Shown here one piece after another: positions 15,288-48,625 of a stretch of DNA of 64,000 nt (position 1 is its first letter; the number at the start of each line of letters is the position of its first letter). Below the pieces are notes generated by a model. It saw nothing but the letters and a program-made list of their open reading frames with translations, was not told the DNA's origin and searched no databases. The position numbers and the translations under genes are program-made. The stretch comes from Romanomermis culicivorax (lineage: Eukaryota; Nematoda; Enoplea; Mermithida; Mermithidae), in assembly GCA_963922205.1 (NCBI GenBank), contig CAWUHX010000044.1, positions 1 through 64,000 on the forward strand, written 5' to 3'.

Positions 15288-15289
15288 AT

Positions 15290-21548: not shown

Positions 21549-24500
21549 TTATTTCCGCAGGAATCCGCATCCTTTCGGCAAAACTTTGGTTGGAGTTTTG
21601 CTCATTTTCAAAATGCCGGGTGGAGGCATCTGTACTGATTGACTCATAGTCGGCGCTCGTGGGGCTAAAGCTCGTTGCGCAGCTCCCAATGATGTTCGAA
21701 TTCCAACAGCTGGTGGTTGGGTTGTCCCGGTTGTAGTCATGGTGATGATGGGAGCCGGCGTCATTTGATACTTCCGAGGTATGCTCGCTTTCAACGATGC
21801 TATCTCGTCTTTTCGCTTCTTTTCTTCGGCTCTTTTGTCCATTTCGATTTGGTATTCGCGATGGATTTTTCGAATGATAGCTTTTCTTTCTTCGGTGGCC
21901 GGATAATTCGGAGCTCTTGTATCAGTCAAACATTGTAAAATGTAGCGCAGAGCCATCGAATACGAATTATCAGTCATTTTGTAGTCATAAGCTTGTCGGG
22001 CATGGAAGAGAAACAGCGTAAGCTGTGTTATGACGATGGCATTTTCAGGGCCATAGTACTTGTAGTAATTGCACATCCAGCTTAGGAGAACTGCAGTGAG
22101 TTCCTCCGTACAATGTGGATCTCGACGCAAGTATCGTGCTTGGAAATAGTCAGGGAAATCCTGAGCTATTTGTTGCGAAGCCGCGGTGGCCTGACACAGA
22201 ATCATTAGATCGAAATTGAGATGGGCGCGACTGAAGTAATTAACGATAATTACTTCATCGGTTGTTCTAGGTTGAATTTGGGCCGTTATAGGCGCAGTAG
22301 GTACGCTAGGGTACCATTCTTCAGGTGGTGTACATTGTCTAGCAAATTGGTGATGCGGAATTTTGTATTCTCAAACGATTCGCTGTGGCTTTTGTTGATC
22401 GCTAGCCACTTCCACTTGTTGTGACGTCATTGGTTCGTCCATCATTTTCTCGGAGTCAGCCGTCAGAGGCTGTTGACACTCTAATTCCTCTTTTCGCAAC
22501 TGATCTCGTTTTAAGGCGCTGGCCCATTCGATTCTCTTTTGATGATCCTTTGAATAGCTGGGATGTTCTCATCTATAGTCACGATCACGATGATATTTTC
22601 TCAGTCGTTCATTCGATGCCTATTCTCCATGACGATACTTTCGACTATCCTAATCCTCACTTTCTTTTCATGCAATAGACTGTGAAGGTCGTTCTCGTGT
22701 TTGCGAGTCAGTTTCTTTTTGTTCTCTACTTCGCGTATCTTCTCGCGAATCACGACGTTTCTTGGATGGTGGCACATAGTTTGGATCTTCCGGATGAGAC
22801 TCCAGATAGTCCTGAATAGTGCGCAATTGCCTATCGATCGCATTCCGTCTTCGAAACAGTGAAAACTAATACGCTCTAACATCGCAAATCGGTTCGCCCT
22901 GTTTGTCGCATAGTCGATCTTTTTTAACATCCAAAACAGGAGTCGTACTTTCGGTACTGACAAGTGTAGAGGTGTCTACCTCGTTTTTCTTCAGTATTCT
23001 ATGTCGCGTAGGAATTATTCGCGGCGGTATCATTTTGGAATCATCGTCATCTTCTCCTTTCATTTGAGATATGTCTCTCATCGACGTAGTTTTTACCAAC
23101 GTGGCTCTTTCTCCATAATCCTCTCCTTTATCCCAATCTATGTCATACTGACTGTACCATAGATTTTTGGATAATGGTGCTAGCGAGGATGTAGTTTTAG
23201 CTGTTGTCATTGGCGCGGTAGTATCCGTTCTTGATACGTCTTCTTCTTCGCTATCGATTTGTATAACATCAGTTTCTGTAGGGATTTCCGTTTTTACTGT
23301 GAACAATTCTTTGGCGGTTTGTTTTATTAAGGATTCGACGGCCATTGTCGTTTTTGTATCCAGTTCAGTTTCCGCGGAAGTTTGTGTAGGAGCCTGGGTA
23401 GGCGTTTTTGTCGGACTTTCTCCCATCAATGTAGTGCCCAGATGCACGGGTAGATTCGAACTCATTGTTAAAATGTGGTCGGGCCGAAAACAAATGAGTC
23501 GTTCACATTTTCGTGACGTCAAAATTGGTGAGTTATACCAAAAATAGTAATAAGGATTTTCCTTGTACTTCTTTTTTGTTACTAGATCGGTTTCGCTAGA
23601 GACAGGAAAACTGTCGTTTCGGAATATGATAGGTCCCAAAAAATATCGGTTTGCAAATATCGGTTGTTTGTTATCGCTACGATTCTTTTGGTTAAATGGC
23701 ATACAATTAGCCCATTCAATCAGTTCTAATTCGAACGCTCGGTCTCGTTTTATCCAATTTTGTTCCCATATGAGATCAATTTCGATGCTATCGCTTTTCA
23801 ACATTAGTTTTGGAATCTTGTTTTTGATTATTGCTCGCAATTCCGTTTCGGAATGTGGGGAGCATACGTGTGCGACTAACAGCATGGTTCCCCAAACAGC
23901 GTTCATCCATTCGTGATGATTAGGGAGCGAGTATAGCGGCGTTAGAGCCAGCATTTCGGCGATTTGATGATCGAATTTCATTTCGTATATCGGCCAAGTT
24001 TCGGGAGGGCCGTACATTGAAAACAGATCGTTTACGACTAGATTGAAGTTTGTTTGTTTCACTTCATCACTCATGACCATATTTTGGTCTATTTTGGACA
24101 GAAATAGGAGCGACATAGGCGCACCGACAGCGTGATGAATGCTGGTTATGTCGTTAGAGCCTAAAGCTCTGTCTATAACACTAGCACATATAGTGGCGTC
24201 ATCGTACGGTTCGACTTTTCTGTCATCTGTCAAAGATGACGTATTTTGTTTGCTACGCCTTATCAACAGTAGTTTCGATGGGTGCATTTTTAGGCCCAAT
24301 GATTTAGCAGAGTGTTCCACGTTAACGTGATTGTACAAACAATATCACATATTCTGAACCTTATAATCATAGAATATGATTTGGTTCAACACCAATATTT
24401 CGTCGCGCATGATCGCGTGCAACATGCTTTTCGAAAGCATCGGGTCTTTGACGCCGAATGCCCCTTTTTCATCGCCTTCGCAGTCAACGTTCGCGTTATC

Positions 24501-25507
24501 ATAAAGGTTTTGCGTCGCAGTATGTATGTATGCGGGCGGTAGAAAATCATGAAGAAAGATTTGTATGGTATCGTATACGCTATCGACAAAACTGTAGCGC
24601 CCATACACGAAAAACATCAAAATTGGATAATACGCGTCCAATATCGAGTAGGTTAGGACCTGCTCATCGGGTTTCCCAGCTTGGGCGATTTGGTCGTTCG
24701 CTTGGGGGAAGTACAGTGTAAAATGCTCTACATTTAGCGCGAACATGTTGGTGACTATTCCTTTTAATTTTTTGTTTTCGGGACAAAGGCCGATTAGATG
24801 TGCCCTTTCCCATTTTTCAGGCGAGCGTTCGATGTTCTCTAGTATGATCTGGACATCGACCAGTATACTAGGGGCAAGCACGGTGAAGTGCGTTTTGCGA
24901 GCGTCAGGCGAATAGTATTCGCGTCCATGCGTGTCCTTCAGACATTTCCAGCCGTCGGCCTGATCAAAACTGATAACAATGGTTTTGGGAGCTGATACGA
25001 ATTCGTAAAATGCCGTCAATCTTCGGGAGTAGCCGCTAGGGCGTCAAACATTATGGTGTATCCAGTTGGGAAGCCCAACTGGACGAACCGAGCGACGTGA
25101 GTCGCGTTTTGGTTCACTATATTCATTTTTGTCTTCTCATGAATGTACAATTGATTCGTCGAAATCTTTTTGACGTCAAACCCGACCAATAAGTGGCCTC
25201 GAATATTCGGTTTCAAATGTGCTGACAATGCACTTTTCAATTCAATGTATCATGGATCGCCCAGGACATTGAGGGGCCTGGCGTAAACCGTTTCGAACCA
25301 TCGCTTGAACTCTGTGATTCTTATCATGTGTTTGATGTTATATTTGTCCGCAAAAAAGAATCTATCGTCCTGGCGATATTGTTTCTTTTGATACGATATG
25401 TATCTATCTTGATTGTTGAAATATTTCTTGGAAATCAGTGGCGGATTGATCAATGATGTTGATATCGCCGAACTTTGCAATGTTGTCGCTTCGGACTCGC
25501 TGGTCAT
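21549..25507 (-). pseudogene. Element 2 ORF3: exonuclease-like third gene, broken
   Basis: This is the homologue of element 1 ORF3. It starts near 25507 with a polar segment ending QYRQDDRFFFADKYNIKH, which matches the element 1 splice junction region but is uninterrupted here. A TGA at 25252-25250 breaks the frame. Next come GHLLVGFDVKKI (exonuclease motif I, with Lys where element 1 has Glu), a frameshift near 25018, [12 protein letters not shown] (probable motif II) and LKGIVTNMF leading to [16 protein letters not shown] (motif III, Y-x3-D). A TGA at 24347-24345 precedes a Thr-rich disordered region (24338-22866). The last 218 codons (22205-21549) contain the C-terminal helical domain. Several breaks make it a pseudogene, and the motif-I substitution suggests catalysis may already have been lost. 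Confidence 0.8.
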
Positions 25508-26011
25508 CTTTCATTTATCAAATTTGATTTGTCGTTATCGAGCAATTGATTCGATCCGACCGTTCACTGAGCTTTCAATTTATCAAAATGAGAAAAAAGA
25601 GCGAAGGATCTTGCTAAAAAGATGAAGGTGTAAAGTGGAGAGTTGTTAACCACAAATTCAAATTTTCATGCACATGGCAAAAAATGTAAAGTTCAGATTG
25701 GGTGGGACCGAAGGAAGATATTTCTACAGCGCACGCTTTTAGCTTCATTTTTCTTTTTTGCGCTACTACTTAAGGAAGGTCAATTTCTTCGAAATGGTCG
25801 TGAATATACACAAAACTACGCGACAGTATCACACATATTTCTTTCACTCATTCCACACCGAATCTCTATTAGCGCGTTGAGCGCGTTTTGATAACGAAAA
25901 CTTTATACTCATCGCCTTGCTTACGATTATAAAATAATTAGAATTTTATTAACAAAGTTAAAGTTAGTGTTAGTTAAAATATTATGAAAAATTTACAATT
26001 TTTAATTTTTT

Positions 26012-27343: not shown

Positions 27344-27428
27344 TTTACTTCTTTCTTCTTCCTGCGTCTTTGATCTTGTTATAGCTGCAGGGACAGTCTT
27401 TTTTCCTTCGCCAAATGGTGGTATGAAT

Positions 27429-27634
27429 CATACCTGTAAGACCTCCGACCAGTTGGGGGGGGTAGGAAATAGTCGAAATTTTTCCCAAAAAAGGCCAAAA
27501 AACATACACTTTTTGGCAAATTTTTTTAATTTTTTTCCAACTGGGGGGGGGGGTTTGGGGGGGGAATGATTTTGGGTACTCGGTTGACCAAGTTGGGGGG
27601 GGGTCCCCCCCCAACCCCCCCAAGTACAGGTATG
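27429..27634. mobile_element. MITE family 2, clean copy inside element 2 pol
   Basis: It is a 206-bp element with termini CATACCTGTA and TACAGGTATG. It is flanked by GTATGAAT (27421-27428) and GTCTGAAT (27635-27642), an 8-bp duplication with one mismatch. It carries long G and C runs (27544-27568 and 27594-27618) that can fold back. It is the reference copy for the fragments at about 990 and 4010-4387. Confidence 0.85.
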
Positions 27635-27649
27635 GTCTGAATATTTCAT

Positions 27650-29209
27650 TTGTTACTTCTTCGCTAATCATTGACTTCACTTTAGCGGGAGGCTCGTTTC
27701 ATGATAGAAAATCAGGCAAACATTTTCTTTGCCTTTCACATATTCAACGCAATAGTCGCAGTCTTGAAGCTTTATTGCGAAGTTCTGGAGTCCTGAATTT
27801 CGATGTTTTTCTTCTTTAATCCATTGCAAGGGTTTATGGTCAGTTCTGACTGTTACCTTTTGACCATAGACATAATGTCTGTACCATCAGAAAGCTTCTA
27901 CTATTGCAAGACATTCCCGCTCAGTCGTACTGTAGCAGGTTTCTAGGTCAGAAAGAACTCTACTATTGTACGCGATGACCCATTGATCATTTTCATTTTC
28001 TTGATACAAAATTGCACCGATAGCAGTTGTGCTAGCATAAGTTTGAATAATGAATTTCGATTTTTGGTCATTATAGACAGGATATCGCAAAAAAGGAGTT
28101 GAGGTTAGAGATGTTTTAATCTCATTAAAAGCTGTTCCATGTTCTTCGCTTATTTCATATTTCACGTTTTTTCGTAGTAGTTGATAAAGCAGTGGCGAAA
28201 GAGTGGCAAGATTTGGTATGAATTGTCTACACCATTGAACTAGGCCCAAAAAACTTTGAAGATCTTTTACCGTTTTTGGCATTTCATAGTTTACGATCGC
28301 GGAGACCTTTTCGGGATCAGGCGAAATTCCCTTTTCGCTTAGCAAGTGACCAAGAAATTTTACTTGTTTGGGTACAAAATCGCATTTATCAGGTCTCAGG
28401 GTTAGATTCCCGTCATGTAGAGCATCAAAGATCAGTTGGATATGATTTAGATGATGGTTATACGTTCGCAAAAAAACTATGATATCGTCGATATAGACCA
28501 AACAGATTTTCCAGATGTATGGATGCAGGATCCCTTCCATTAGTCTTTGAAATTCAGCAGGAGCATTTTTCAAGCCAAAAGGTAGAACTTTGAAACGAAA
28601 CAAACCTTCTTGGCTAACGAAAGTAGTTTTATCACGTGAAGCGATGTCTAAAGTGATTTGCCAGTACCCTGCTTTCAAGTCTAGAGTTGAGAAAAATTGT
28701 GCATTTCCTAAAGCATCTAGATAGTCATCGATTCTCGGAATCGGAAATTTATCGCTAGGAGTAACTTCATTTATACCTCTATAGTCGACTACAGGTCGCC
28801 AACTTCCATCTTTTTTGGTTACCAGAAACATAGGCACAGCCCACGGTGATTGGGAAGGTTCGATGAGGCCTTTTTCTAGCATTTCTTGAGTTTTCTGACG
28901 AACCATTGGTCTTTGTTTAATCAGTGCACGATAGTAGTGTTTCATGACTGGTTTTGCATCACTGGTGTCTATAGAGACCGTTAACTCGTGAGTGAGAGTA
29001 GGCTGATCTCCAGGGAGACTGAAAACATCGCGGTATTGCTTGAAGACTTCGATAGCGATTTTTCTATCTTCATCATCAATATTCAACTTTTCAGTCATTT
29101 TTTCGAGAGCGAGTTGAAGTTTTTCTTCTTCTGATATAGTTGACTGATCTTTAACCAACGTTGCTGGTTCATAGTCATCTTCATGATCGCTTAGCAACAT
29201 GACGGTCAT
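27650..29209 (-). pseudogene. Element 2 reverse transcriptase and RNase H
   Basis: Reverse transcriptase motifs can be read in order: [64 protein letters not shown], then the catalytic VYIDDIIVF, followed by VKFLGHLLSEKGI. RNase H follows with IQTYASTTAIGAILYQE, where Tyr replaces the first catalytic Asp of the usual [18 protein letters not shown] is interrupted by TGA at 27889-27887, and TVRTDHKPLQW follows in the same frame. The TGA aligns with a basic residue in element 1. The stop and the RNase H substitution show decay. Confidence 0.92.
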
Positions 29210-29344
29210 TTTTGATTCTTCGAATCGGAATTTAACGTCAGCGATGAGCTGGTTAGGTTGTAGATGGATACCGTTCCCACTATTATTGACGAATAATAGT
29301 GGACATTTGCCTTCAGTTATGTTGATTATCGCTAGTTCGATCGG

Positions 29345-30259
29345 TTATTCACAGTTTTCTTTTCCGAAGTTCACGGGTTGAACTATGATGCTTTTGAAGC
29401 TTTCGTTTGTGAAAGGGAAGATTTTCCCATCAACCCACCTTTGACAATTCGGTTCTACGTAGCATGACGAGTTATTCAAAATCGGTAGGGATCTGTCGAT
29501 TTTCACGATTTGTGTTTGACTTTGTCCCGTAGAAGTATTTGAAAATACTTCATCATAAGGCACTTTTTCAATCCGTTTCAAAACTAGGTTTAGTTCTTGT
29601 TGAACGTCTCTGATTCTGATGAAATTTTCGCGAAAGTTTATTACAGCTCGAATGCTCGGATGCACTAGGAAATCGGTTCCTAGGAGGCATTGCTCTCCTG
29701 CAGTAGGTAGAATCCAGCATCGTACTAGATGCATTCCGAAAGATGAGTTGATTTTGAAGATTATCAGGCCTCGGGCATCGACGATAGCACTATCAGCTAC
29801 TTTTATCTGCGCGGATGTTTCTAACGTATCATAGTCAATCCCCAAAGAGCGTTGAGCTAGACATGAGGAAATGACTGAACATTGAGCACCTGTGTCAATC
29901 AACGCTTTCGTTTTGGTTTTTCCGATTTTGGCATAAATATGAAAAGCACGAGTAGGAGCATATAAGCTCAGAAGTTTGATGTCTTTTTGCAAACATTCTT
30001 CGATTCGACACACGCTAGATCTCGCGATCCACGGTTCAGTAGGTTTTTCGATTGTGAAATCTGTGATTCCAGGAGCAACAAAGAAGTTTGTAGCTTTTGT
30101 TGTTTCTGTCAGTTCAAGCATATTAGCTGTACTAGTTGTCGGCTTCATCGGAACAAAAGGTTTAGGTGGGTTAAACACCGTTTTGGTTTCTGATGGCAAA
30201 ACTTGTTGCGAAGATTTTGGAGAAATTAGCTGAGTCTGTATAGACTGTGAGTTATTCAT
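29345..30259 (-). pseudogene. Element 2 aspartic protease region
   Basis: A 304-codon open frame contains the retropepsin signature [13 protein letters not shown] in the middle and a downstream CLLGTDFLVHPSIRAVI. These correspond to the flap and second hydrophobic block of Gypsy proteases. The enzyme matures Gag-Pol. It sits between gag and reverse transcriptase, as in element 1. The domain itself is intact, but its links to gag and RT are broken by frame changes. Confidence 0.85.
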
Positions 30260-30376
30260 CGGATAGTAGTAATGCTTTTCGATTATGTTTTCTTGTCGGG
30301 ATTCGGAATCGCAGAGAGAGATGTTTGCAACATCTCTCTGATAGTTTCCGTTATTGCGATTGAAAAATTGGTTATT

Positions 30377-31886
30377 TCAGTCGAAATTTTGATTCTGATT
30401 GAGCATGTAGTTATGCGTATTTTGTTGAAAATGAGGACGCCAATTATGGTTATTTTGCCATTGATGATTGGGTTGCTGTTGCCGAGGCTGAGAAGCCTGT
30501 GGTTTCAATTGATAGCATTCGGAGCTGTCATGTTTACACTGACCATGATAGGTGCAGTATTTCACGGGTCGTTCACATGACTGATTTCATTGGAAGTTTT
30601 GATTTTGAGAGAAATCCCCTATAGGAATGTTTTCTCTATTCCGGAAATTGGGACCTATCATGGTCGATCTTCGATTTTTAAAATTGTTAGCATTTTGTGT
30701 TCTTTCTCGGATTCCAAACTTTTCTAGGATTCATTTTACGCTTTCCTCAAACTCTTTAGTCTTCATTTGAGTCGAATTTTCTTGAAACCTCACGCTATTT
30801 CGCTGTCTAGAGTCATATCTGTTTCGGGATTGAGAGATATCTCTGAAACGAGGTTTCGAATCATCTCTGAAGCGCAACTGTGATGGTTGTTCTTCCGACA
30901 GATTTTCGAGTCTGTTAACCAGTATAGGTTGTTCTACTCTCACAGTGGACTGTTTATTGGCTCGCTGGATTTTCTGAACTTTCACGATGGCTATAGCTAA
31001 GTCAGTGATCGTTTCTAGAGTACTCGCTTCAATCAAGACTCTGTAAATTTCCGGAATTTTCCAAAGAAAAGTTGTGATAACTTTTCTATGGCGATACTGA
31101 GCGCTTCTGTCGTAGTACAGTAGATGTACGTAAGTGCTGATTCGAATTTAAGAAAGCTGATGGATCTTCGGTTTCGAACAGAGCGATGGACTGGAGCTCG
31201 CATTGGAGCGTATCTTGGTCGCAATTCGGTGCATTCATACACATTAAAATCTGTTTCGCTTCAACGTAGGATCGGACATCTCGTATGGTGTTCAGGGCAC
31301 CATCGCAAGTCAAGCGACACAATGTGTGAAGTTTCACATACTCAGAGGCATCGAGGCCAAACTGGTTTTCAAGTGCAATGAAGAATTTCATCACTTGTTG
31401 ATTTCGGGTCGAATTATCTAGTTTTTGCAGCGCTATCTTTTTACAGATAGTCTTAATTCTCATTTCGTCATCAGCGAAAGATCTATGCACCTGAGAAAGT
31501 GGGATAGACGGAAAATTTATCTGAGAGTTTAGCGCATTTAGCGCGTTAGAGCGGTCAAACATTTGAGTCGGGATGATTAGATCATCGTCGTCATCGATTA
31601 TACTTCGAAAACTAAGTTGACTTTTTCGATCGCTAGTGACATTTTTCGGTTTATTCAATTTCTGAGACTGAGTGTAAGAGCTCGTAGGTCTCGCGATATT
31701 CTCGATTTCAGGGACGTTCGGTTTTGATAGCTCTTCTTTCTGAGCTCTCATTGCTTCGATTTCAGTTTTAAACTCATCGAGAAGTTTTTGTTGTTGAGTC
31801 ACTATAGTCACTATTTCGCTTAATGCGTTGGTAGCGTCGCCACAAAAATTTATCATTTCGGCATCACATTTTTGCATTACGTCCAT
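30377..31886 (-). pseudogene. Element 2 Gag
   Basis: Fragments in three frames are present. The first (31886-31086) starts with a predicted coiled coil (LSEIVTIVTQQQKLLDEFKT), followed by a capsid-like region aligning with element 1 Gag (QQVMKFFIALENQFGLDASE). A second (31036-30731) is Arg-rich, with RFRDDSKPRFRD. The third (30565-30377) carries a zinc knuckle CTYHGQCKHDSSEC, that is C-x2-H-x4-H-x4-C, and a Gln/Asn-rich tail. Frameshifts near 31170 and 31036 break the protein. It would package element RNA in virus-like particles. Confidence 0.82.
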
Positions 31887-32834: not shown

Positions 32835-33047
32835 TTGGTTTGTAGTGGTACAAATGAAGCCAAAATTTTTGTTTGTACTCTGGACCGCTTTGTTTGTAAA
32901 GTACAAAAAAATTCTGGTGAGTGAGATGATCCTATTGTCGTATTCAAGTAGTCTCACATAAACTTTAAATCCCTGCTATACTTCGCCGGTTGGCCGTAAA
33001 AGTAGTACACCAGCTCAGAACCGGCGCAGGTTATGGGGGGAGTATTC

Positions 33048-33196
33048 TCATGTAAGCGATTACCAAGTTTGTGATTCTCAAGTGAGTGATTCCCAAGTGG
33101 GCGATTCACAGGTGAACGAATTCCCATGTGAGCGATTCCCAATTGAGCGAATTCCCAAGTGAACGAATTTCCAATTAACCGATTCCAAATGAATGA
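33048..33196. repeat. 15-bp minisatellite
   Basis: About ten degenerate copies of a unit like GTGAGCGATTCCCAA run in tandem, with variants GCGATTCACAGGTGAAC and GCGAATTCCCAAGTGAAC. The unit length is a multiple of three, so an incidental minus-strand frame shows a repeating five-residue pattern. Confidence 0.8.
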
Positions 33197-33293
33197 TCGA
33201 GAATGTAGTAACACTTTCTTCATATTTTCCTTCTTTACCTCATATTTTTCTTGGTATTTATTTCTTTTTTCTTTCGTTTTCTGTGTATTGCTT

Positions 33294-33969: not shown

Positions 33970-34584
33970 TGTTGTGCAGGTCTTTCCTTAAGAGGCGTAA
34001 GAAAAGATTGGGTCTGAACTGACCTGTTAGAACTGATCCCTTGGCTAAGCCTCGGTGATAGTGCAACAGTCCGGTTATCCCCAGACCTACAACAACAAAG
34101 ATAAACTTTGTCCTAAATACGGGGGCCTTACCAAGGACCTCCGCAGTCTCCTAGATGAGACAAGGAATCCCCTCAGGGATAAACTTACTTGGGTATAACC
34201 CGTAAGGGGTTTCCCAAAGCTTACCTGATGTAAGCCGGCGCCTGGGCCTCTGGCCCTCCGCCTTCGTCGATGCGAATAATCTAAATGAATAAACAAATAT
34301 ATTAAACAATAAGTCCGACGAAATATGTAAAAAGAATGTGGGTATACCACAGTAAATAATTTGTGAACAAAACACGTTGCTGGGAAAATTGTATTTGGGG
34401 ATGCCAGCAATATAGCCAAAAATATAATAAAAACAAGAATATAGTGAACAATGATTTTCACTATCACTTTCGGTCTTTCTTTGGCGCTCCATTTCTATGC
34501 AAATGTCTGCGCCGCTGGTCGTCCCTTTCGTCGATTTGCATGTCGATTTCCCCACACGAATTGGCATCAACAGGGTGCCCAACA
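33970..34584 (-). repeat. Element 1 3' LTR
   Basis: 615 bp with 5-bp terminal inverted repeats TGTTG/CAACA. It is virtually the same as 48011-48625. The differences noted include C/T at about 34138 and 34143, T/C at about 34182, G/A at about 34218, and a two-base change near 34412. Confidence 0.95.
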
Positions 34585-35330
34585 TCCCTCGCGCGTCGAA
34601 ACCGACCTACGGGAGGTAGAAAAAAAAACTTTTGGCCGGGTTACCCCGGCATTAAAAAGAATTAATCAAAAAGAAAAAATCTACAATTCCGGCTGACTCC
34701 TGATAAACAGTTTGTCTCACTCGGACTCCCGTTTCACAGTCTGTCCTAATCGGACTCCTGTGCTGGTCGTTGGACACAACGAATACCAAGGGCTTCGCCG
34801 CAATGGCTGGCAAGTGACGCCCATTTTGACCTCGGCGTTGATGGAATAACCTCCTGCCCTAAGGAGTACGACGTAGACGTCGGTGCCGAATGTGGCCGGT
34901 TTCGGGCTCGGCCGCTCGGTCTGCATGCTGTGTCAATTCGTTGGCCGTGGGTCTAACCGCATGCAAATCGATTTCCCGCGTCTCTATTTTTTCTAAATTA
35001 AACTAAAATACGAGATTATATTACGATACAAAAAGACGACGCGGGAATGTACGAGTATCACAAAAATTTAAAATGCGCTAAAAATTTGAGCAAAAAATGT
35101 GGCCAAAAGTTAAAAATATTTTTGCGGTTGCGTTTTGCACTGGTTTGTCGAAAAGAAAATTTTTGTTGGCCAGCAGCACCGAAATTTAAATAATATTTTT
35201 GGATTTTATGTTTTTTGATTTTTTTTTGGATTTTTTGTGATTTTATTAGTGTTTTTGGATTTTGTATTTTATGAAATTAATAAAAATATATGCGAAAAGA
35301 TAAATTTTGGGCCAAAATTTGTGCGGCTTA
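34585..35330 (-). other. Element 1 3' untranslated region
   Basis: About 750 bp lie between ORF3 and the 3' LTR, with no supported frame. They align with 11835-12530 in the old copy, so the spacer is a stable part of the element. Confidence 0.7.
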
Positions 35331-38300
35331 TTACTGCTGCTGCCCGCCGCCTCGGTAACCTCCTCGAGGTCTACCTCGATAGTATCCCCTCTGACCTGGT
35401 TGGCCTCGGGTCTGACCTCCATCGTGGCCTTGATTTTGGCCTTGCTGACTTCCGCCGCGTCTACCAAGCGGCATGAAGTTCGGATTGTGGAACTGCGCAT
35501 CCGGGTCTTGACCTTGGTGTTGCCAGGTTCCTCGGCCTCTGTAAGGTCGCTGAGGGCGCCCTCTGAAGCCTCCTCTGGGTTGACCTTGGTCATACCCCGG
35601 TCTAGCCCTGTACGGGGCCGGGTTTGAGAACATATCGTCTCTCCCCTGCTGCCTTTGACCACTGCTAGTGGAGCTGCTGCGTTGTGGTTTTTGAGTCCGG
35701 AAAGTTGAGTTGAGAGATTTTGATGAAATTGATTTTGACCGAGAAAGCGGACTTTTGTAGGAAGTGCTAGCAGCTTCACTATATGACCTCTGGCTGGTCG
35801 TAGCCGATGATTGTTGTATCGTCGGCGGTTGTTTCTTAGCCGGAGGGAGTCTAGGCACTTTAAACTTACTTGGGCTCTTGGCAGCCGTTCGCTGATATTT
35901 ATCAGCTTGCGACCTGTCATCGCCTGGTGCCTTCCTCTTAACACCCATCTGGTTTAACCTTTGCGAGCCCATAAAAATATATTGATTAAAGGCTGCAATG
36001 TAGACATCGTCTACGCGGTTTCCCTGGGCCTCAATGACTAGTTGTCTGTTCGCAAACGAACACACCTGGGCATACCACCTACCAATTGCCGTTGGCGTGA
36101 TCGGAGCGAAGTCCAACTGTAGAAAGATCATTAGGGTCACATACCTAATGGCCGTAAAGACGTCTGAGGCATCGTAGTCCTGAAGCCATCTGGGAATAAG
36201 AATTAAGATGATCCATTCCCAGATTTCCTCAGGGATGCGCTCTCCGTCAAACATAAATCCGCCCTGCATTTCAAATTGCTGGCGGTAATTTTCATGAATT
36301 TCGGCCATAGCGTCATTGACCATTCTGTAAATGATCGGCCGTTCTTGGCGATCAAAGGCGAAATAATTGGCGACCTCTGGATTTTCGAATGAGATCGGCC
36401 CAATTAAGCGCCTTTGTTCCCATTGCCACTCCCAATAATCAATCAGAGTTTCGGCTAATTGACCAGGAGTGACAAACTGCTGTGGTTCCCTTTCGGGTCT
36501 ATTAGCTACCACATTCAGTTTGACCTTCTTGATCAATTTTTCCTCCGATTCAAGATCGGGCTTCACCAATACGCTTCCCGCAGGTTTGCTACTTCTTGCG
36601 GTATAGCTGGAGGGCACGGATTTGCTTTTGCCAGATGAAGTACTAACCTCTCCGCCGGTTTTCGATACCGTTCGCGTCTGAGTGTACGAAATTGTTGCAG
36701 TGGACCCTGTTGTCCTATCCGATTTCGTCTGGCCTTTGGAGGTCTCCGTTCGCGTCTGACTTTTTGCAGTCTCCGTCCTCGTCTGACTTTTCGAAGTCTC
36801 CGTTCTCGACTTTTGACTCGTCGAATATTGTGGGGTCGTGGTTTCCTCGGCCGTATCGTAGGCGTCGTTCTCGGAACCGGTGGCGGCCGCTCCTTGTTGC
36901 TGCTGATCTTGAGCTGCAAGTCTGCGTCGTCTGGCCTTACCTATCCTCTTTCTGCGCCTTACCTTTTCCTTGGCCAAGTGTCGGATAAATTTTTCCGACA
37001 TACCTTCAGCTAACATCTGCTGAACCTTATCTGGGGAATAAATTCCAGGAATACCTTCCTCGGCAATTCTTCCCCTCTTCATCAGCTCTGTCGCTGCAAT
37101 AGCTGAATCTGAGCTGTCATCGGCTAGTGCCTGCTCCTTCAGCTTCCTTTGGATTGCCCTCTGACGCAGGAATTCCTGCTGCGTCAGCCTTTTCTGTTCT
37201 TGGATTTTGGCCTGTAGGGCCTCGTGCTTCGCTTGTCGGTCGTGATCCTTAGGATCTTTGGCCTTCACAGGTATCTCCTGGGATGCTTCCTGCATCTTCT
37301 CCAGTCTGACATCGATTCCCGACATTTTAGTAACTGCTTCATCAATTTGAGTCTGGATTTTCTCCTCCTCAATAGCCTGTTTCTGAGTCTTGGCCTCCAT
37401 CGCATCCTTATTTTCTGATGTCTGGCCCTCAGATTCCAGAATTTCACCCTCTTCTTCTTCTTCAACATCCTCCTCTGAACTGGACTCAGAGTCTGAATTT
37501 CGTATCTTCGGCAAGAGCTGTTTTACTTTAGCTGGTAACACAGCTGGTGCCGGAGGTACAGACTGCATAATGGTGACAACCTCTGGCTCAGGCTCGGCCG
37601 GTTGCTGTATTTGAGGTACTTGAGTCGGCTGTGCCACCGCTGGTTGCGTTGGCCGCGGCACCACGACTATTACTGCAGCTGCCTGCGTAGCAGCAGTGTC
37701 CAAAGCTGGTGTAGCTTTGACCACTGGCGCTGGCGCTTGCGGCTGCGTTTTAACTTGTCCCGTCCCTCCGGCTTGCGCCGTTTGGGAAGTAGAGGGACGA
37801 TTTACCGGTACCTTAGATATTAACTCACTGGCTGGGGTATATGTTAGTGTATACCCGGGCATCTCCGAAGCAATTGTTCTCTCCCGGAAGCTTTTGCTAA
37901 CAAACTCCGGTCTGAGCTCGAGCGGATTTCTCGGTGCGTACATAATTGGGTAATCGGTCGGCGATGCGTCTTCCGTCATCGGATACCGCAGTCCCGGCGT
38001 CAAAGTCTCGAAGCCTACGTAGTAAAAAGTTACATAAAAGTAAGGGTTTACCTTGTAGGCTCCGTCCTTCAATAACGATTTGTCGTCGCCGATTTGCAAA
38101 ATTTCCTCGGCTTCTCGAAATCGTAAGGGGACAAATCCGAACCAATTTTGCCACGCGTATACCCCTTTTTTAGATGGAAAGCGGGGTTCCGACGGCGGTA
38201 GCGTTGCTGCTAACTCTAAATAATAAGCCAGGCGGTCGCCTGACTTCCAGGACATTCGCTTTATCATCTCCTGTCCTTCTCTGGTATAACTGTTTAAGAA

Positions 38301-40660
38301 GTTATAGTTCAGCAAAGCGCTAGTTTCGTAATCGCACTCCGCTCTCGAGTGCGGCCATGCCAAATGATAAGCCAATGGCATAAATTTACAGATGACCTCT
38401 AACTCCGCAAAGTTTCGCTCATCTAACATACCTGAAATTTTTGCCAAGTTTGGCGTATAAAAATTGGTCTTGTAGGCCTGTCTATGACCTTCGATACCCA
38501 CTGGGTAGTGGTTGTTTGTGGAAAACACCTCTTCAGGTATTTGATCGGGCTTCCCGGCCTGTTGCCAGTATAGCTTGGCGTTTTCGTATAAAGTCAAAGA
38601 AATTTTCCCGTCTAAATCCCAATAGGTTCCACCTGACTTGAGATTTTCCAGGATATCTTTTGAAATATTAACCCAGTCTGGTATCTGGACGTCCTGGATT
38701 TCGTCGGGATCACTATCTGTAGTGTATCCATCGTCCTTCATCGGTTTGTTATCTCTTGGGAGCAGTGGATAGAAGCCACTTGGCAGTTGAACTCCCTGAG
38801 GACGAACTGGATTACACTCCGTGGGCGCGGTATAATAACCGGTGTTATTTCCCTGCATCTGTACAGCCCAACGGTTATACATTTCACATTTCATCATGTG
38901 ATAGACCATATTCGGCTGTACCTGATCGGTTTCCATGACTGGGGTACCTAGCCCCATTTCTCTATTCACGTTGCCCGGAATCATTAAGTATTGTTGATAA
39001 AAATGTAGGGCAACTGTGTTGATCTGTTTGGGATCAACCTTGTCATGGTCGAAAATCTGCATTTGCATAAGCAGTTGATCGGCCATGCCATAGTGAATCG
39101 CGGCAAACATGACCAATAAGGAGTAGTATGCGTCTAGAGCGGCGTACCTAAGCTCTTCCGGCAATATACCTCTTTTGGCAAACCGATCACGGTTCGCCTT
39201 TAATGAAAAGTCATACTGATAGGGGCCCACGTCTATCAGGTAGAATTCCGTGAACAGTCCCTTTAACCGAAAGGTTTCGGGACAGATACCTGTCTGAAAA
39301 CATTTTTTCTCCAGGTTTACCCCTACCATGGTTAGAGCGAAACGGTCTAAATCAAAGTATCGACCCTTGGTCTTTCTAAGAAATTCCCGTAAGGGCACAG
39401 TTTTGTCCCTGTCCTTATTGTCTCGCCCTGCACCACATACGTTATAGATACTTACCAGGTCCTCCAATACGGAATATCCGGCGAAGAGCATGTCGGAATT
39501 CAAAAAGTCGTGGAGGCTGGTCCATTCTTTGAGCATCATCGACGTCGTATCAAGAACGTAGGTTTGACCATTTGTTAACGCGAAGCTCACGTATCGGGCA
39601 AACTGCTTTCCCATAGGATTGTCGACCTCTCTCGTTTTAAACAAGGCGGCGACTTTATCCTGGTTGACTTTTTCGACATCGAATCCACAAACTGGTTGTC
39701 CTCTGAAGATTGATACTTCTCGGATAAAGTGGAGTGTCTGGCTGACTTTCCCGATGTCTACCAATTTTGGTTCCTTGGGATTAGCCGGCCAGTACCCAAA
39801 TGTGGCTTTAAACCACTGATCCAGTTCATGGATTCGCACGGCCCTTTTGACGTTATAATCTAAACATAAGATACTATTAATTTTAGTGTTTATTCCCCTT
39901 TTTTCAGCGCATTTTCGGGTCTATACTACACCAGCACCACAACACCAAGCGGGTTAAGTTTCGCAGAAATTAAATTTAGTGCAGGTTGTTAGGTGAGCCA
40001 CTGATATACAAACATTGAGCTGGTAGGCAACTAACACCTTACCAAATCTTACCCTTGCTACCTCTATATGTTGGGGAGGGTAGACCTGATCCGATTGTCC
40101 ACCACTTGATCGGACACCAATCTCTGACCAGCTGCTTGAGCGACCAACTACGCTCCATTTATGGCGCTGTATTTACAATTTTTATAGTGCTCGAAATTGA
40201 TAATTTTTAATGAATTTGGTATCGAAAAAGTGATATGATTTGATTTGATTTGAAAATAAATAATTTTTTGATAAATTTTTGATGATAAAACTTTGAACGG
40301 GCTGAACCCAAGGTTCTAGGTTTCCCTTGAATCGTATAGCTCTCGGTGGTATCAGGTATATTTCCAAATTGGAAATTCCCTGCTTGGCTTCGAGCTTCCG
40401 CTTCTCAGTACTCCCATTTTTCGTTCCCTCTAAGTTCTAACCTCGTCTGCCCTTTGGGGCGCCGAGCTGGTCTTCCAGTGACTTCTGGGCATTACCTGCG
40501 GTTTCCAAGAATATTTGATAAAATAAGTTCGAAACTTACCGTCGATGAAGAAAAAACGATTATCTTGGCGGTGCTGGGCCCTGCCATATTCGACGTGGCG
40601 CTCTGTGTGCGACCACTCGCGCGTCGGAGCTTGTTGGCGGTTCCGCGCGCCTTTTCCCAT
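35331..40660 (-). CDS. Element 1 ORF3: DEDDy-exonuclease-like protein (spliced)
   Basis: Predicted exons are 40660-40540 (121 nt, starting MGKGARN and ending [10 protein letters not shown]) and 39859-35331, joined across a GTAAGT...TTTAG intron. This gives 1549 residues ending in tandem TAA codons. The junction recreates FFFID-DYNVKRA, matching the uninterrupted FFFADKYNIKH of element 2. Domains in product numbering: residues 80-300 show the DEDDy 3'-5' exonuclease pattern of RNase D, WRN and MUT-7 proteins. Motif I is CGFDVEKV (D101, E103), motif II is [10 protein letters not shown] (D174), [10 protein letters not shown] follows, and motif III is RYAALDAYY (Y279, D283). About 690-810 is Pro/Ala/Thr-rich; 830-960 is acidic then coiled-coil; 1170-1345 is a Trp-rich helical domain. 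The last 100 or so residues are RGG/RG-rich, as in RNA-binding tails. There is no signal peptide, so it is not an envelope gene. Exonuclease activity and role are inferred, not shown. Confidence 0.82.
39860..40539 (-). other. Predicted 680-nt intron in element 1 ORF3
   Basis: The donor GTAAGTTTC at 40539 and acceptor CTTATGTTTAG ending at 39860 keep the reading frame and restore a conserved junction. Like a retroviral env intron, it must stay unspliced in the genomic RNA that is reverse transcribed, because it is present in the inserted copy. Confidence 0.72.
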
Positions 40661-41077
40661 TTCCTTTCGCTTCGAAATGTTTTGTTTCGAATAATAAATT
40701 TATAAAATTTAAAATTTTTGAACGCTGAAAAAGTTTAATATAGCAATTCTGCTAATTTCCTTTTTATCGCGGTTCGGGGAATATTTTACTTCTTCCTTCC
40801 GATGGAAGTTTAGAATTCAGATAAGCGGGGGCAGCTATAGTTTGATTTTGAAAAAATGAAAAATTTGAAAATTAATTTTTTGGAAAAATATCGGAAATAT
40901 TTGGGTTGTCACTTTGGTCTAAAATTCCGAAGAATTTTTCCCAAAGTCTGATATAAATATGAAAAATTTACAAAATTAATATGAATAATACATAAACGCG
41001 ATAAATATTACAAATTAATACATTTTTAATTAAAATTAGTACCTAAGCGCGCGAGATATATACATAATTAAAAAAAA
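40661..41077 (-). other. Spacer between gag-pol and ORF3
   Basis: AT-rich, 417 bp, no supported frame. It could hold the start of a subgenomic mRNA or an upstream splice acceptor for ORF3 exon 1; none is certain. Confidence 0.4.
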
Positions 41078-44000
41078 TCAGCGCGAGATCGCGCATAGAT
41101 TCGCCTTGAGCGAATTTCCAAATGATTTCATTTGGTTTGGCGCTCCAGTCGTAACTGTTTGTGCCATATTGGAAAGTGACGTATTTTCGTCACGTGGCGC
41201 GTCCTGATTGGCTCGCGCTATTCGCGGCAAGACCCTAGTGGTCTCGTAACGAAAATGTTTCAACCTGCTGATTGAAACAGTTTGGCGATTTAGCGGGTTG
41301 TCCCAATGTACAATGGTGACAACATTCTCCGCTTCTCGCGAAATGTCCGTAACTATGAACGGACCGGACCATGGTAGTCCTAATTTTTTCTGCTTGTCTA
41401 CTTTGAGCAGAACCCAGTCCTTTTCTTTAAACCCATTTTGTTTGGACTTTTTATCGAAGTATTTCTTCGATTTTTCAGCAGCACTCTGGATATTTTTGGC
41501 AATATCCTCGTAAAGGTTGACTAAATGATTGGTCAACACAAATTTGTATGCCTCTGCATTGCTGTCCGGCATTACAATATCGTATGCTTTCGATAAGTTT
41601 AACCCGAAGGTTGCCTCGTGACCTCTAAGCAATGAAAATGGGGATTGCCCCGTGGCTGCATGTGGTGTGGCATTATATGCAAACACCACGGCTCTCAAGT
41701 ATCTCGGCCAGTTATCTTTTTCCTCAATGGCCACCTTTCTGAGCTGTTTAATGAGTGTCTGGTTGAACCTTTCTACCATACCATTTCCTTGTGGATGGTA
41801 GGCTGTTGTAAAAATTTTCTGACACTCTAATAACTTGCAGATCTCTTTCATCAGATCTGAGGTAAAACAACCTCCTCTATCGCTGAGTAGTCTCCGTGGA
41901 GTCCCGTGCCTAAATACAATAGCTTGTAGAAAAGTATCTACAACGGTGCTAGCTGACTGATCCGGGATCAGTTCAGCTTCAACCCACTTTGTAAAATAGT
42001 CCTGAAAGACTATGACATACGGTCTCTTCTCACTGAGTGGAGAAATACCCACGATATCCACTGATACTATGTCAAAAGGACCTTGTGGAATAATTGGTAT
42101 CAGTGGCGGAATTTCCGTGTTTCCCTGATTAGCCATTTGACAAACTGGACAAAACTTGATCCAGTGCCTGACATCCTTTTCAATTCCAGGCCACCAGAAC
42201 CGTTTTTTAATCATAGCAAGGGTCCTTTTGAACCCCTGATGAGTCATCATTACGGCACCGTGGTACTGGTGCAAAGTATTGTCCCTAAGGCAGGATGGGA
42301 CGACCACCTGATCATCCGATCCCTGTCCGGCTTCGCGGTATAACACTTCATTCTGGATATAAAATCCACTATGATACTTGGTTGTCCCATTTGGACCCAA
42401 TCTATCAAAGTATGGTCGTAGTACCTCATCTTTTCTCTGCAAGAGGGCCATGAGATCATCTCTAATTAACCCTTTTGGTAATTCATCTTCTTTGGGGTCT
42501 GCCAAAGTAAACTCCTGTTCTTTCTCTGGGTATAACCAGGTAACTCTTTTTTCCTTACTTTTTTCCTGGTTTCCCTTACTTACCTTTTCGTTGACCTGAT
42601 TGCCATCAGGCTGGATCTGAGCCTGATTACTCTTCTCCGCTTCTTTCGCCATGCTCCTTGTAGTTACGGCATTCACCAAGTCTGCAGGCGAGTTTGATTC
42701 TGGATCACCCTCAGAATCTTCTGGATATATCTGGGTGAATCTCGGACTCATATCAGTCCTCTGATTCTTCTTACCTTTTGGCTCCGGATATAACGGAGTA
42801 CCGTCTTCAGGATTCTGATCTGTCAGAATTCTGAATCTCTTTACCAAATTGAGATGCTTTTTCTCAATTAGCTGTGCCTCAAGATCTTTCAGATTTTCAG
42901 ACTCTCGTTTATCCTTTGAGAACATATGTTCCCATTTTGGCGGTATCTTTTCCGCTTGATCGTCTGGTTCATCCATCCTGGACAAAAAGTCTGCCATGGC
43001 ATTTTGTTTTCCAGGCACATACTCTAGTTTATGGTTGAACTGAGAGATGAATGAGTACCATCTCTTCAACTTACCATTGGTCATGGCATTGACCTTCATA
43101 GAAAGTAAAGGCTTGTGATCAGTTCTTATGATCACTCTATGACCTACTAGGTAGTGCTTGTATAACTTTAAGCCATACACTATTGCCAAGCACTCCCTTT
43201 CCGTGGCTGACCACTTCTTTTCATCCACTTTTAAATTTCTGCTATTATAAGCAATTACCCAGCAGTCTGACTTGGTCTCCTGGTAAAGGACTGCTCCTAG
43301 TGCCGTTCCGCTGGCATCTGTCTGAAGGACAAAGTCCGCAGACCCGTCCAAAACCGGATACCTAAGGAATGGCACTGACAATAGTGCTTCTTTCAGGCTC
43401 CTAAAAGCCTGATGGTGAACCTCCGTGATTTCCCAAACACAGTTCTTCCCAGTTAATTTATACAATGGTTCGGCATGTTTAGCCAAACCTGGTATGAACT
43501 TTTTACACCACTGCAACATACCTAAAAACCTTTGCAGTTTACGTTTAGACTCTGGGAATGGGAAATCATTTATAGCTTTGACCTTTTTCGGATCTGGGGA
43601 AACTCCATCCGAATTTAAGATATGTCCTAAAAAATGAACTCTCTCAGGCAGGAATTCACACTTCTCCGGCTTCAAGGTCAAATGAGCCTTTCTTAGAGCT
43701 TGCAGGACTAGCTCTAGATTAACTAGGTGTTCCTCAAACGTATTTGAGAACACAATAATATCGTCTATATAGACTAGACAGATTTTCCAAACATATGGAT
43801 GCAAAACTCTTTCCATCATACGCTGGAATTCGGCTGGCGCATTCTTTAGGCCAAAGGGCATGACTTTAAATTGATAAAGCCCTTCTTGGCATATGAAAGC
43901 AGTTTTTTCTTTGCTTTCTTCATCCATTGGCACTTGCCAATATCCTGATTTGAGATCTAAGGTAGTATAAAACTTGGCTTTACCTAAACAGTCTAGATAG

Positions 44001-47000
44001 TCATCCATTCTAGGAATGGGATACTTATCATCCTTGGTAACATCATTTATACCCCTAAAGTCCACTACTGGTCGCTTGGTACCATCCTTTTTACCTACAA
44101 GGAATAACGGAGCTGCCCAAGGCGACTTTGATGGCTCAATTACACCCTTTTTGAGCATATCTTGCACATGCTCACGAACATGTGGCCGTAAATTTATAGC
44201 AGTCCTGTGGTACCTTTTTGCCACAGGGGCTGCATCACCTGTATTGATTTTACAGGTCAGGTAGGGTGTAGTAGTTGGAGGATCATTGGGCAAGCTGAAC
44301 ACGTCTCTATATTTTGCGAGACATCGTAGAGCTTGTTCCAATTGCTCTGATGGTATGTTGGATTTAGCCAGCATATTGTACAAAGCTTCCTTGAATGCTT
44401 TCTCATCCGATTGAGGAGCTTCAGGTCTAGCTTGAACTGCACAAGTTTGCAGCTTCTCCAGATCCTCAACTATCTTCCCCTTGAGTTGATCTTGGTTATC
44501 AGTATCACACAACACTGAATTAGTATGGCCAATTATTTGATTTCTTTTCAAATGGCATCCTGATCCTGTGTTGTTGGATACCATAACAACAAAATCATCT
44601 TTTGTACCATCTACTATGGTACTATCAATGTGGAACCTTTCTTCATTCTCTTCAGACTCTATTATGATTCCATTAAGGCGATTTTCGCCTACCTTATCCC
44701 AAAGTTTTGCCCTCAGAAGTATATCAGTACCACTAGGTAAGTAGATGGGGTTCACACTCACCACTGGCACCGAAACCTTTAGCAGGCAAATCTTTGGCTG
44801 ATATTGGTCGGCGGCGCTCATTGTGGATTCCGTGGCGCTCGTGGTCATGACCTCTCCACAATTCGATTGGGGCTGGTCCGGCGTCACGTATATCCGTTGT
44901 TGACGGTTGTTGAGCGTCATCGTCCTATTCCTGAAATCTATTATGGCTCCTACCTGAGGATGAGCCAAAAAGTCTGTACCCACAATAACATTTTCACCTG
45001 CTTCAGGAATTACAATTGCTTTAACGGGGAACTGTCCACACAATGTATCCATCCTAAATTGGATATACCCATGGGCTTGGACTGTCTTACCGTTGGCTAC
45101 AGTAACATTTAATATCCTCGGATATTCAGTGTAATCCGGGCCCAAAGTTTCTTTCAGAAACTTAGCCGACATGACAGTGCACTGAGCTCCTGTGTCAATT
45201 AAAGCCATTGTCTTACGACCTCCTATAACAACCTCAATGTGGAATGGGGCTGTTCTGGGGTACGTATCCAGCAAATGTTGTTCCTGAGGACTAGCTGGTG
45301 TGCCTCTCCTTACTACTTGTACTGATGGTACTACAGGTTGTGGTGCAATTGCATTCATTTGCACAATACTACCTAATACAACATTTGGGCAACTCACTCT
45401 CTGATTTACTTCACCTAAAGGACTCATTTGAGATTGCCTTGCAACCATAACACTCGAATAATCCTTCTGAGGTGGCTGATTTGTGAATTGACCCTGTTGA
45501 AGAGTCTGAGTCGGACCCGTAATAGCCTGAGGTGGCTGAGGATGCTGTAGTGCAGCTTGCTGTTGGTATTGCTGCATCTGTTGGAATTGCTTTTGCAGCT
45601 CCTTTTGCTTTTTGAACTCCAGAAACTCATTGTAATCGGAGTTCTGTAGATAACTTTCATGGCTATCCTGATAACCTGAATAGCCTATATTATACGCACC
45701 TCTACCTCTGCTATTAAAGTTGGCATTAGGGTAACCTCCTCTACCTCTATAGTTACCTCTAGCAAAAGTGTTGAAGCCTCCCCTGTTGAAGGTAGGGAAG
45801 CTGGCTCTACCTCTGCTCCTGCGCTCGGACAATACTCTCAATGTCCTGCAGTCTGCAGTATTATGTGTTATGTTCTTGTGGAACTCACACCATGGCTTTG
45901 TCGGATCTCGGGAAACTTGACCTCCCTGACTGGTACTAGGTATGGCCACATCAGACCGATTTTCCGCTTGCCTGTTATCAACCTTTTGCTGGAGCTGGTC
46001 GAACCTTTCGACCAGTTGTACCATCTCTTTAGAAATTTTTAATAGAAGAGATTCTTTCTTACCTTTTTCGGTCTGAGCCCTAGGGGCTTCCCGAACTGGA
46101 ATCTCCTCTATCTCAGGAGAATCACTCCTTGACCTTTGGGTTTGGGCCTGTACCTGATTACCTACAGTTTGATATGGTTGCCGAAACCTTTGCCTCTGGC
46201 CTTGTTGATATCCTTCTGACTGGTTCCTAGCAACTATGGCAATTTTAGGATCATGCCCACTAGGCATACCTACTTCATTAATTACAATAGGATCCTGTTG
46301 TGTACCCTTAGGTCCATATCTCTGAAAGGCATTCCTATATCTACGTTCAATGTCATGAACTTCAACTGCTAGATCATACCAAGTTCTAAAGGTATGTTTT
46401 GAATTCTTGAGTTCAGTCTGGAATGTGGGGTCACTCTTATATATGAAGGTGTCAATGATCAGTCTCTGTTTAGACTGATAGTCCAAATCACCTTTAACTA
46501 GTTCCACTAATATACTGACCCTTTTTAAAAACTCGACGGCCTGTTCATTGGGTCTTTGCAGGATCTCAAATAATTCCCTGGTTAACATTTCCAGGTTACA
46601 TTCAGGTGCAAAGACATTAATAATGGCTCTCCTGGCCTCCCTATAGGTCATGTTGTCTCCTGCAACAGCCTTCGGTCTACCTTTAGAAAGCCTCAGCAGT
46701 GCTTCATACTTAGCTGATTCGGGTGTATCCCTACGGAATTCCCCTTCCAGTGCTGTTAAGAAGCTAAGCACCTGCTGATTTACCATACCCTCATCTAAAA
46801 GTTTGGGTAACACACCTTTAACGATATTCCTGACTACAATCTCTTGTGCCAAAATATTTGATGGCACTTCCCTCTGATCATACGCTGCTGTTAATACTGG
46901 ATCAAGATCAGAGTTCAGGGACTGCAGCATAACCCTATTTGGATCTCGTTGAGGTGGTACACCTCCTTGATATGATGGCATATTGTCTTTGTCGAACCTG

Positions 47001-47914
47001 TAATCCCTATATGGGAAACATGCCAATTGATCTGGTCTAAGGGTATTTGGATCAACTATATTTCCTCTACCATCATAGACCACTCTAGTTAAAGTTGGAT
47101 GCTGCGAAGCTATCTGATTTTGATTCCTGAAGTCTGCTGATTGCTCAGCTCCTTCGAATCGAAGATCTCTAGCTGGACCTCTCCAACTTTTGGGCTCAAA
47201 GTTAAGCCTTTGCCCTTCATCAATATCAGGCCTACTACTAGGCCCTGCGCCTGCACTCATTTCAGCAGTGAGACGGTTGTCTCTTTCTGCACCCCTATTA
47301 CATGATCTAACCTGTCTATCCGGCTCCTGTCGGCGCCTGTCGGCTTCCCTTTTATTGTCCTCTGTGGCAGCATTCGCGATTATGTCGAACAAGGCTTTGA
47401 CGGTCCCTTTCAATTCGCGTAGCTGCGTCACCAACTCTTGATTGGACATCTCGGGAGCTCTTTCCTGCGGTTGGAATCGCTCTTGTTCCTGGGGAATCCT
47501 CTCTAATCGTTGATCGATTTCGGGGTCCCTTTCTTCCAAATTTGATCGAATTTCGGGCGTAACGACGTCCCTTTTCGGTCCTGCTAATTCGACCTTTGGC
47601 GGCGGTGACCTTTTGAAATTTCGCTGCGTTGGTCCATCGGCGTCTGGGTTCGGATTCGCGGGGCCTGCCTCCTGCGGATCGATGGCAATCACTGGTGGTC
47701 GGTCAATTGGTACGCCTGCATCTTGAGGCGTAAAATGCATTGAATTTTGCTGCAATGGTTGAACCCTCGCGGGAGTTTGATCTGGGATCACTGGGTCCCA
47801 AGCAGCATGCCGTTGCTGATCTCCATCTCCCAAATTGACTAGATTCCCAGCACTCGCCACTCTGGGTGGTGATCTATGTAAAGTATTACCTCTTGGTATC
47901 CTTTCATTAGGCAT
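41078..47914 (-). CDS. gag-pol: Element 1 Gag-Pol polyprotein
   Basis: A single 2278-codon frame, with no frameshift or stop between gag and pol, starts at the [13 protein letters not shown]. Order and approximate residues: Gag with a disordered N-terminus and capsid-like helices (1-650); a zinc knuckle [14 protein letters not shown] (C-x2-H-x4-H-x4-C) and an RGG-rich stretch with YRGRGG (about 690-760); aspartic protease [13 protein letters not shown] (about 900). Reverse transcriptase has [32 protein letters not shown] and catalytic YIDDIIVF (about 1380). RNase H has [16 protein letters not shown] (about 1530), and ATERECLAI and RTDHKPL follow. Integrase has an HHCC finger (CPVCQ near 1925) and a D,D,E core in [17 protein letters not shown] and [10 protein letters not shown] (about 1950-2045), then a GPF motif WSGPFIV (about 2180). 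All catalytic residues are present. It makes and inserts the element's cDNA. Confidence 0.97.
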
Positions 47915-48010
47915 TTTGAAACCTGCTATCTTTCGATAGTAGCCTGGAGGATTTTCTTTTCTCCTAGTCTGACTACGAAGTTCCGTGGTAAGGAGTTAAA
48001 AGCCACCACT
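47915..48010 (-). promoter_or_regulatory. Element 1 leader with primer-binding-site candidate
   Basis: The 96 bp between LTR and gag ATG begin, on the minus strand, AG then TGGTGGCTTTTAACTCC at 48008-47992. Starting with TGG two bases after the LTR is normal for a tRNA primer site. The tRNA was not identified. Confidence 0.5.
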
Positions 48011-48625
48011 TGTTGTGCAGGTCTTTCCTTAAGAGGCGTAAGAAAAGATTGGGTCTGAACTGACCTGTTAGAACTGATCCCTTGGCTAAGCCTCGGTGAT
48101 AGTGCAACAGTCCGGTTATCCCCAGACCTACAACAACAAAGATAAACTTTGTCCTAAATACGGGGGCCTTACCAAGGATCTCTGCAGTCTCCTAGATGAG
48201 ACAAGGAATCCCCTCAGGGACAAACTTACTTGGGTATAACCCGTAAGGGGTTTCCCAAAGCTTACCTGATGTAAGCCAGCGCCTGGGCCTCTGGCCCTCC
48301 GCCTTCGTCGATGCGAATAATCTAAATGAATAAACAAATATATTAAACAATATGTCCGACGAAATATGTAAAAAGAATGTGGGTATACCACAGTAAATAA
48401 TTTGTGAACAAAACACGTTGCTGGGAAAATTGTATTTGGGGACGCCAGCAATAATGCCAAAAATATAATAAAAACAAGAATATAGTGAACAATGATTTTC
48501 ACTATCACTTTCGGTCTTTCTTTGGCGCTCCATTTCTATGCAAATGTCTGCGCCGCTGGTCGTCCCTTTCGTCGATTTGCATGTCGATTTCCCCACACGA
48601 ATTGGCATCAACAGGGTGCCCAACA
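48011..48625 (-). repeat. Element 1 5' LTR
   Basis: 615 bp, TGTTG...CAACA, about 99% identical by eye to the 3' LTR. Transcription of the element should start inside it on the minus strand. A 144-codon frame is open in both LTRs but has no recognised motif and is not called as a gene. Confidence 0.95.

Follow-up and report, generated by a model that had tools for sequence, protein, structure and literature searches.

A putative DEDDy-type 3'-5' exonuclease domain in the third open reading frame of Gypsy retrotransposons of Romanomermis culicivorax

Here we analyzed a stretch of 64,000 nucleotides from the nematode Romanomermis culicivorax (contig CAWUHX010000044.1, positions 1 to 64,000; hereafter the window) and, within it, a Gypsy retrotransposon of the minus strand which is called E1. 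Downstream of gag-pol this element carries a third open reading frame (ORF3), and the N-terminus of the predicted protein (about 250 residues) is, as judged from its sequence, a divergent but complete 3'-5' exonuclease domain of the DEDDy type (RNase D/WRN/EXD-like). The E1 family is recently active in this nematode. With somewhat better than even confidence we read ORF3 as an accessory protein of the family, whose N-terminal exonuclease would trim the 3' ends of the element. The parts of ORF3 are as follows.

40540..40660, minus strand: ORF3 exon 1, 121 nucleotides, with the ATG at 40660 and stops in frame upstream
39860..40539, minus strand: ORF3 intron of 680 nucleotides, GT-AG, predicted from the sequence
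35331..39859, minus strand: ORF3 exon 2, open, giving with exon 1 a protein of 1549 amino acids
38970..39704, minus strand: putative DEDDy-type 3'-5' exonuclease domain, residues 46-290 of the frame starting at 39839, placed by profile-profile alignment
39669..39686, minus strand: motif I GFDVEK (D101, E103), starting at residue 99 of the spliced protein
39456..39479, minus strand: motif II GYSVLEDL (D174), starting at residue 168 of the spliced protein
39123..39149, minus strand: motif III RYAALDAYY (Y279, D283), starting at residue 278 of the spliced protein
37860..38654, minus strand: middle region without a Pfam match, partly conserved in a second Gypsy element of the window (487-607, E 1.8e-5)
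36525..37859, minus strand: low-complexity region with an acidic stretch and a basic RRRKR...RRRR, probably disordered by its composition
35940..36524, minus strand: C-terminal region without a Pfam match
35334..35939, minus strand: basic tail with 4 RGG and 10 RG

The motifs DxE, D and YxxxD stand in the DEDDy order in E1 ORF3 and all five key residues are present; their positions, which had been assigned in an earlier note on this DNA together with an RGG tail, hold in the numbering of the spliced protein, and the tail is there as well. Sequences and profiles were compared by hhalign with eight known DEDDy sequences. For E1 by itself the score was 31.7 at a probability of 31%, and a profile of E1 and its relatives scored 36.2 (54%), or 44.6 (86%) under another match-column rule. 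The final profile combined E1 with older copies from R. culicivorax and with three second-family Gypsy copies; it reached 44.9 with a probability of 85.7% (90.9% under the other match-column rule), and motifs I, II and III fall in register with those of RNase D over 140 aligned columns at about 19% identity. In shuffles which preserve the gap pattern the maxima were 25.3 for E1 alone and 26.5 for the relatives profile (400 shuffles each, none of the 400 reaching the E1 score), and the best of 300 shuffles of the final profile was 23.6, none reaching the real value. As a control, 13 other pieces of ORF3 and pol, each of 330 residues, gave probabilities of at most 0.5%. The DEDDy domain which the earlier note had proposed for a Gypsy ORF3 is thereby borne out at the level of profiles.

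The ORF3 gene structure was compared in 13 copies, namely the window copy and 12 fetched for their long frames among 117 listed. Exon 1 and the splice donor are kept in all 13 and the acceptor AG in 12, while copy L016 has lost both the acceptor AG and the motif I aspartate. The predicted intron is also supported by the second element of the window, since its homologous frame lacks the intron and runs across the E1 junction without a break (RFFFADKYNIKHMIRITEFKRWF in the junction alignment). No key residue is lost in 12 of these 13 E1-family copies, 12 of the 13 having been picked for long frames.

Genome-wide, the E1 exonuclease domain was found in at least 117 copies with 97-100% identity, a count which is a lower bound since 117 of 3,205 candidates were scored; frames are open over more than 1,500 residues in 76 of the 117 listed. 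Six pairs of long-frame copies, non-independent since some copies occur in more than one pair, gave a ratio of non-synonymous to synonymous substitution rates (dN/dS) of 0.05-0.07 for the whole of ORF3 and of 0.02-0.10 for the exonuclease part, and one example pair has 65 synonymous against 10 non-synonymous changes in the exonuclease part. Because copies decay once inserted, these values mostly mirror selection on the element protein between transpositions. In these sequences the predicted exonuclease domain has the pattern of strong purifying selection.

The second Gypsy family is represented in the window by one divergent element.

21549..25507, minus strand: frame-broken ORF3 of the second element, whose coding parts cover about 21549-31886; its long terminal repeats (LTRs) were not located

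This element shares 44% identity with E1 over protease, reverse transcriptase (RT) and RNase H (pol residues 881-1650) and about 30% over the exonuclease part. The family has at least 150 copies (150 of 2,706 candidates scored), and a frame of at least 1,250 residues with no stop is present in 31 of the 150 scored. Three copies were fetched, and the two with a frame of 1,273 residues keep GFDVEK, GFDQADDWKCL and YSILDAYY.

A third and compact type of ORF3 was found by a genome search with PF01612 (DNA_pol_A_exo1), which gave 80 matches, all above the cut-off, the best with 50.1 bits and L029 with 41.7 bits. A Gypsy integrase lies immediately upstream in 26 of 30 fetched loci (30 of the 80 matches). 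Loci L056-L059 also match PF01612 and are possibly host exonuclease exons. The compact ORF3 is open for about 610 residues with the motifs GLDAEF, GFASNCDL and EYAALDA; its key residues are unchanged in all 18 frames of at least 500 residues while neighbouring residues vary, and dN/dS of its exonuclease part is 0.05-0.16 (six pairs, with dS above 1 in five of them). Against the E1 family profile the compact type scored 51.2, with a shuffle maximum of 24.8. Two full compact elements were delimited.

L052 4026-9901 plus L053 1-1651: compact element with a CCHC knuckle
L054 4206-9901 plus L055 1-1252: compact element

Their LTR identities are 99.8% and 97.5%, and both contain regions for RNase H and/or integrase, but RT was detected in neither (interior by tblastn, long open reading frame by Pfam). 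Their sequence suggests non-autonomous elements which were mobile recently. In the L052/L053 element, taking TTACA as the LTR end allows GGTGT to be read on either side.

Several observations weigh against the assignment of the E1 domain. When motif III is masked the profile match drops to 0.85% probability, so much of the profile signal lies in this motif; with match columns fixed to E1 and the intact copies of the second family absent, the probability is 54% only. In an initial test by plain column shuffling, 12 of 300 shuffles equalled or exceeded the real score (maximum 135). That test was discarded as flawed because end gaps become internal gaps and, presumably, match-state columns were changed. 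ORF3 has no Pfam match by hmmscan and no relevant match in the PDB, and AlphaFold2 models are of low confidence, with a predicted local distance difference test score (pLDDT) of 36.3 for 3 rows and 49.5 for 10 rows. Of the seven R. culicivorax gene models which cover motif I, two retain its aspartate and all seven its glutamate; the aspartate is retained in two of three for motif III and in three of three for motif II. Gaps of 18-54% and fusions to unrelated sequence suggest that these models represent old, decaying copies; they are still a warning. In the second family, the shorter third copy (L061) has neither the motif I glutamate nor the motif II aspartate, and the window's element reads DVK in motif I, which is likely decay because the full-frame copies keep GFDVEK.

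Relatives were also searched for outside the genome. Full-length ORF3 gave no match at E 0.001 among 5.8 billion proteins (lengths about 826-2628), and the search with its N-terminal part (lengths about 308-980) gave 11 partial homologues, ten of them labelled Romanomermis culicivorax and one bearing a truncated label. A pattern search of IMG/VR gave 81 matches, of which none encodes a relative.

The remaining parts of E1 in the window are given below.

48011..48625, minus strand: 5' LTR of 615 bp, TGTTG...CAACA, 98.7% identity to 33970-34584
33970..34584, minus strand: 3' LTR of 615 bp
47992..48008, minus strand: candidate primer binding site TGGTGGCTTTTAACTCC, adjoining the 5' LTR
41078..47914, minus strand: gag-pol in one frame, 2278 amino acids, with protease, RT, RNase H and integrase
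40725..40732, minus strand: TTTTTCAG, by its sequence a candidate 3' splice site for the spliced ORF3 mRNA
34585..34594, minus strand: candidate polypurine tract GCGCGAGGGA, by its sequence

The LTR pair differs by 8 mismatches over 615 bp, and the LTRs together with the order protease, RT, RNase H and integrase place E1 in Ty3/Gypsy. A Pfam scan of gag-pol gave no match to a dUTPase or a chromodomain. The complete gag-pol between LTRs which had been described before is thus present, with 2,278 codons; a target-site duplication is missing around the LTRs of the window copy, the one copy looked at (flanks CACT and TATG), an absence which might be explained by recombination with another copy or by a false join of the contig. 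A piece of another Gypsy element with RNase H and integrase (48626-50188, plus strand) directly adjoins the 5' LTR, and left of the 3' LTR, at 33040-33197, units of 15 and 31 bp (ATTCCCAAGTGAGCGA) are repeated in tandem. At 11928-16314 (minus strand) the window holds a decayed copy of the E1 family in which the exonuclease part of ORF3 was not matched; a dispersed repeat, also present in inverted orientation at 500-871, separates its ORF3 matches from those to pol.

Trimming of the 3' ends of element RNA or complementary DNA (cDNA) is the most likely function of ORF3 to be read from these sequences. The protein is probably translated from a spliced mRNA, its exonuclease would be active with two metal ions and its basic RGG tail would bind element RNA. 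In the ribonucleoprotein of the element the nuclease would then trim 3' ends, be it those of genomic RNA with their tails, of cDNA or of the primer, and such trimming may help replication or stability.

The main rival is a pseudo-enzyme whose DEDDy fold is kept for RNA binding and which handles genomic RNA in export or packaging, and this we regard as unlikely. DEDDy folds kept for RNA binding are reported for Maelstrom and EXD1 (PMC5408684), and CERV, a product of spliced mRNA of the Gypsy element Cer1 of C. elegans, is needed for the export of unspliced genomic RNA (PMC10309623). A spliced open reading frame after pol, basic patches and an RGG tail fit such RNA handling, as does the missing motif I aspartate in five of the seven gene models. 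Against it, all five residues persist in 12 of 13 long-frame copies, in the two full-frame copies of the second family and in all 18 compact frames, a retention which RNA binding alone would not require. Trimming and a CERV-like role could both hold for different parts of ORF3.

An active nuclease may instead be directed against host defence, degrading silencing small RNAs or stripping the 3' tails which mark element RNA. MUT-7 acts in nematode silencing, and the earlier note had suggested a blunting of small-RNA defence in the manner of MUT-7. The idea has become weaker, being less likely than trimming and, in our estimate, decidedly improbable. MUT-7 pathways as they are known are presumably missing in R. 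culicivorax, given the small RNA classes absent there. PIWI-interacting RNAs (piRNAs) and small RNAs with a 5'-triphosphate are reported to be absent from the species; clade I nematodes are reported to lack RNA-dependent RNA polymerases (RdRPs) of the EGO-1 type but to keep an RdRP of the RRF-3 type (PMC4323106). A mut-7-like role for such domains was raised by the authors of PMC5408684.

That the motif triad arose by chance or convergently, in a fold of another kind, is very improbable. The missing Pfam and PDB matches, the low-confidence models, the concentration of signal in motif III and the 12 of 300 first shuffles would agree with it; against it stand the gap-preserving shuffles (0 of 400 and 0 of 300), by which a chance triad was rejected, the motif register over 140 columns, the retention in the second family and the link of the compact type to the E1 profile. 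Least of all do we expect an envelope or membrane protein, for which the position of the frame speaks, since its top 19-residue hydropathy mean is 1.5 with no clear transmembrane segment (the usual limit is about 1.6 over 19 residues) and the basic and RGG regions fit nucleic-acid binding.

Beyond E1, we put forward only tentatively, and with more doubt than belief, that the 3'-5' exonuclease is a core selected part of the life cycle of several Gypsy groups in this genome, kept even in the compact type, which apparently has no RT of its own and where it may act in cis or be a satellite-like contribution to a shared replication complex. The many intact copies, the three types, the selection and the presence in the apparently RT-less compact type suggest that the predicted exonuclease matters to the elements. 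If it is such a core part, 3'-end trimming would be a step of retroelements hitherto unrecognised. In the rotifer elements discussed below the benefit of such an ORF3 is unclear and its activity has not been demonstrated, and the Romanomermis elements are good material for learning what such an enzyme does for a retroelement. Two of the three ORF3 types escape Pfam scans.

In a tree of 15 domains the transposon domains lie on the WRN/EXD2 side (95/99), the program warning of long branches, and their grouping with one another is weakly supported (71/83; found in 66% of the bootstrap trees), which is compatible with one capture or several. With the cellular DEDDy proteins (RNase D, WRN, EXD2, EXD3/MUT-7) the E1 domain shares motifs I-III and the tyrosine four residues before the last aspartate; it differs by a longer spacing between motifs II and III, by its low identity to RNase D and by lying below Pfam detection. 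CERV resembles ORF3 as a spliced product of a reading frame after pol with several regions, in a nematode Gypsy/Ty3 element. By its description it differs in its length of 517 amino acids, in its domains (H, M and a GTPase-like G) and in sharing exons with gag, and the word exonuclease is absent from the available text (PMC10309623); such shared exons were looked for in the sequence of E1, where exon 1 carries a separate ATG, preceded by stops in the same frame.

The publications available to us place DEDDy reading frames of LTR elements in rotifers only, and none of their titles deals with these Romanomermis elements. In bdelloid rotifers, DEDDy ORF3s were reported in 2017 from Athena elements as well as from the LTR elements Juno and Vesta (Rodriguez et al. 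2017, PMC5408684), and DEDDy frames also in Athena/Terminon elements (PMC6431247), so the earlier statement that no Gypsy DEDDy exonuclease was known does not stand. Juno and Vesta are like E1 in having an RNase D-like DEDDy ORF3 after pol in several lineages per genome, with activity predicted in both. They differ in their host, a rotifer and not a nematode, and the ORF3 of E1, with 1,549 amino acids, has an intron, further regions and the RGG tail. The fourth position is D in E1, whereas the rotifer frames are described as changing from DEDD to DEED (PMC5408684). A dUTPase is reported in three rotifer-specific lineages (PMC5408684) and has no match in the pol of E1. New here are the nematode host, the large spliced ORF3, three ORF3 types in one genome and the selection on the predicted catalytic domain. 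The authors of PMC5408684 suggested 3'-end processing, noting that the activity is unproven, and proposed a pool of DEDDy reading frames on which diverse retroelements have drawn.

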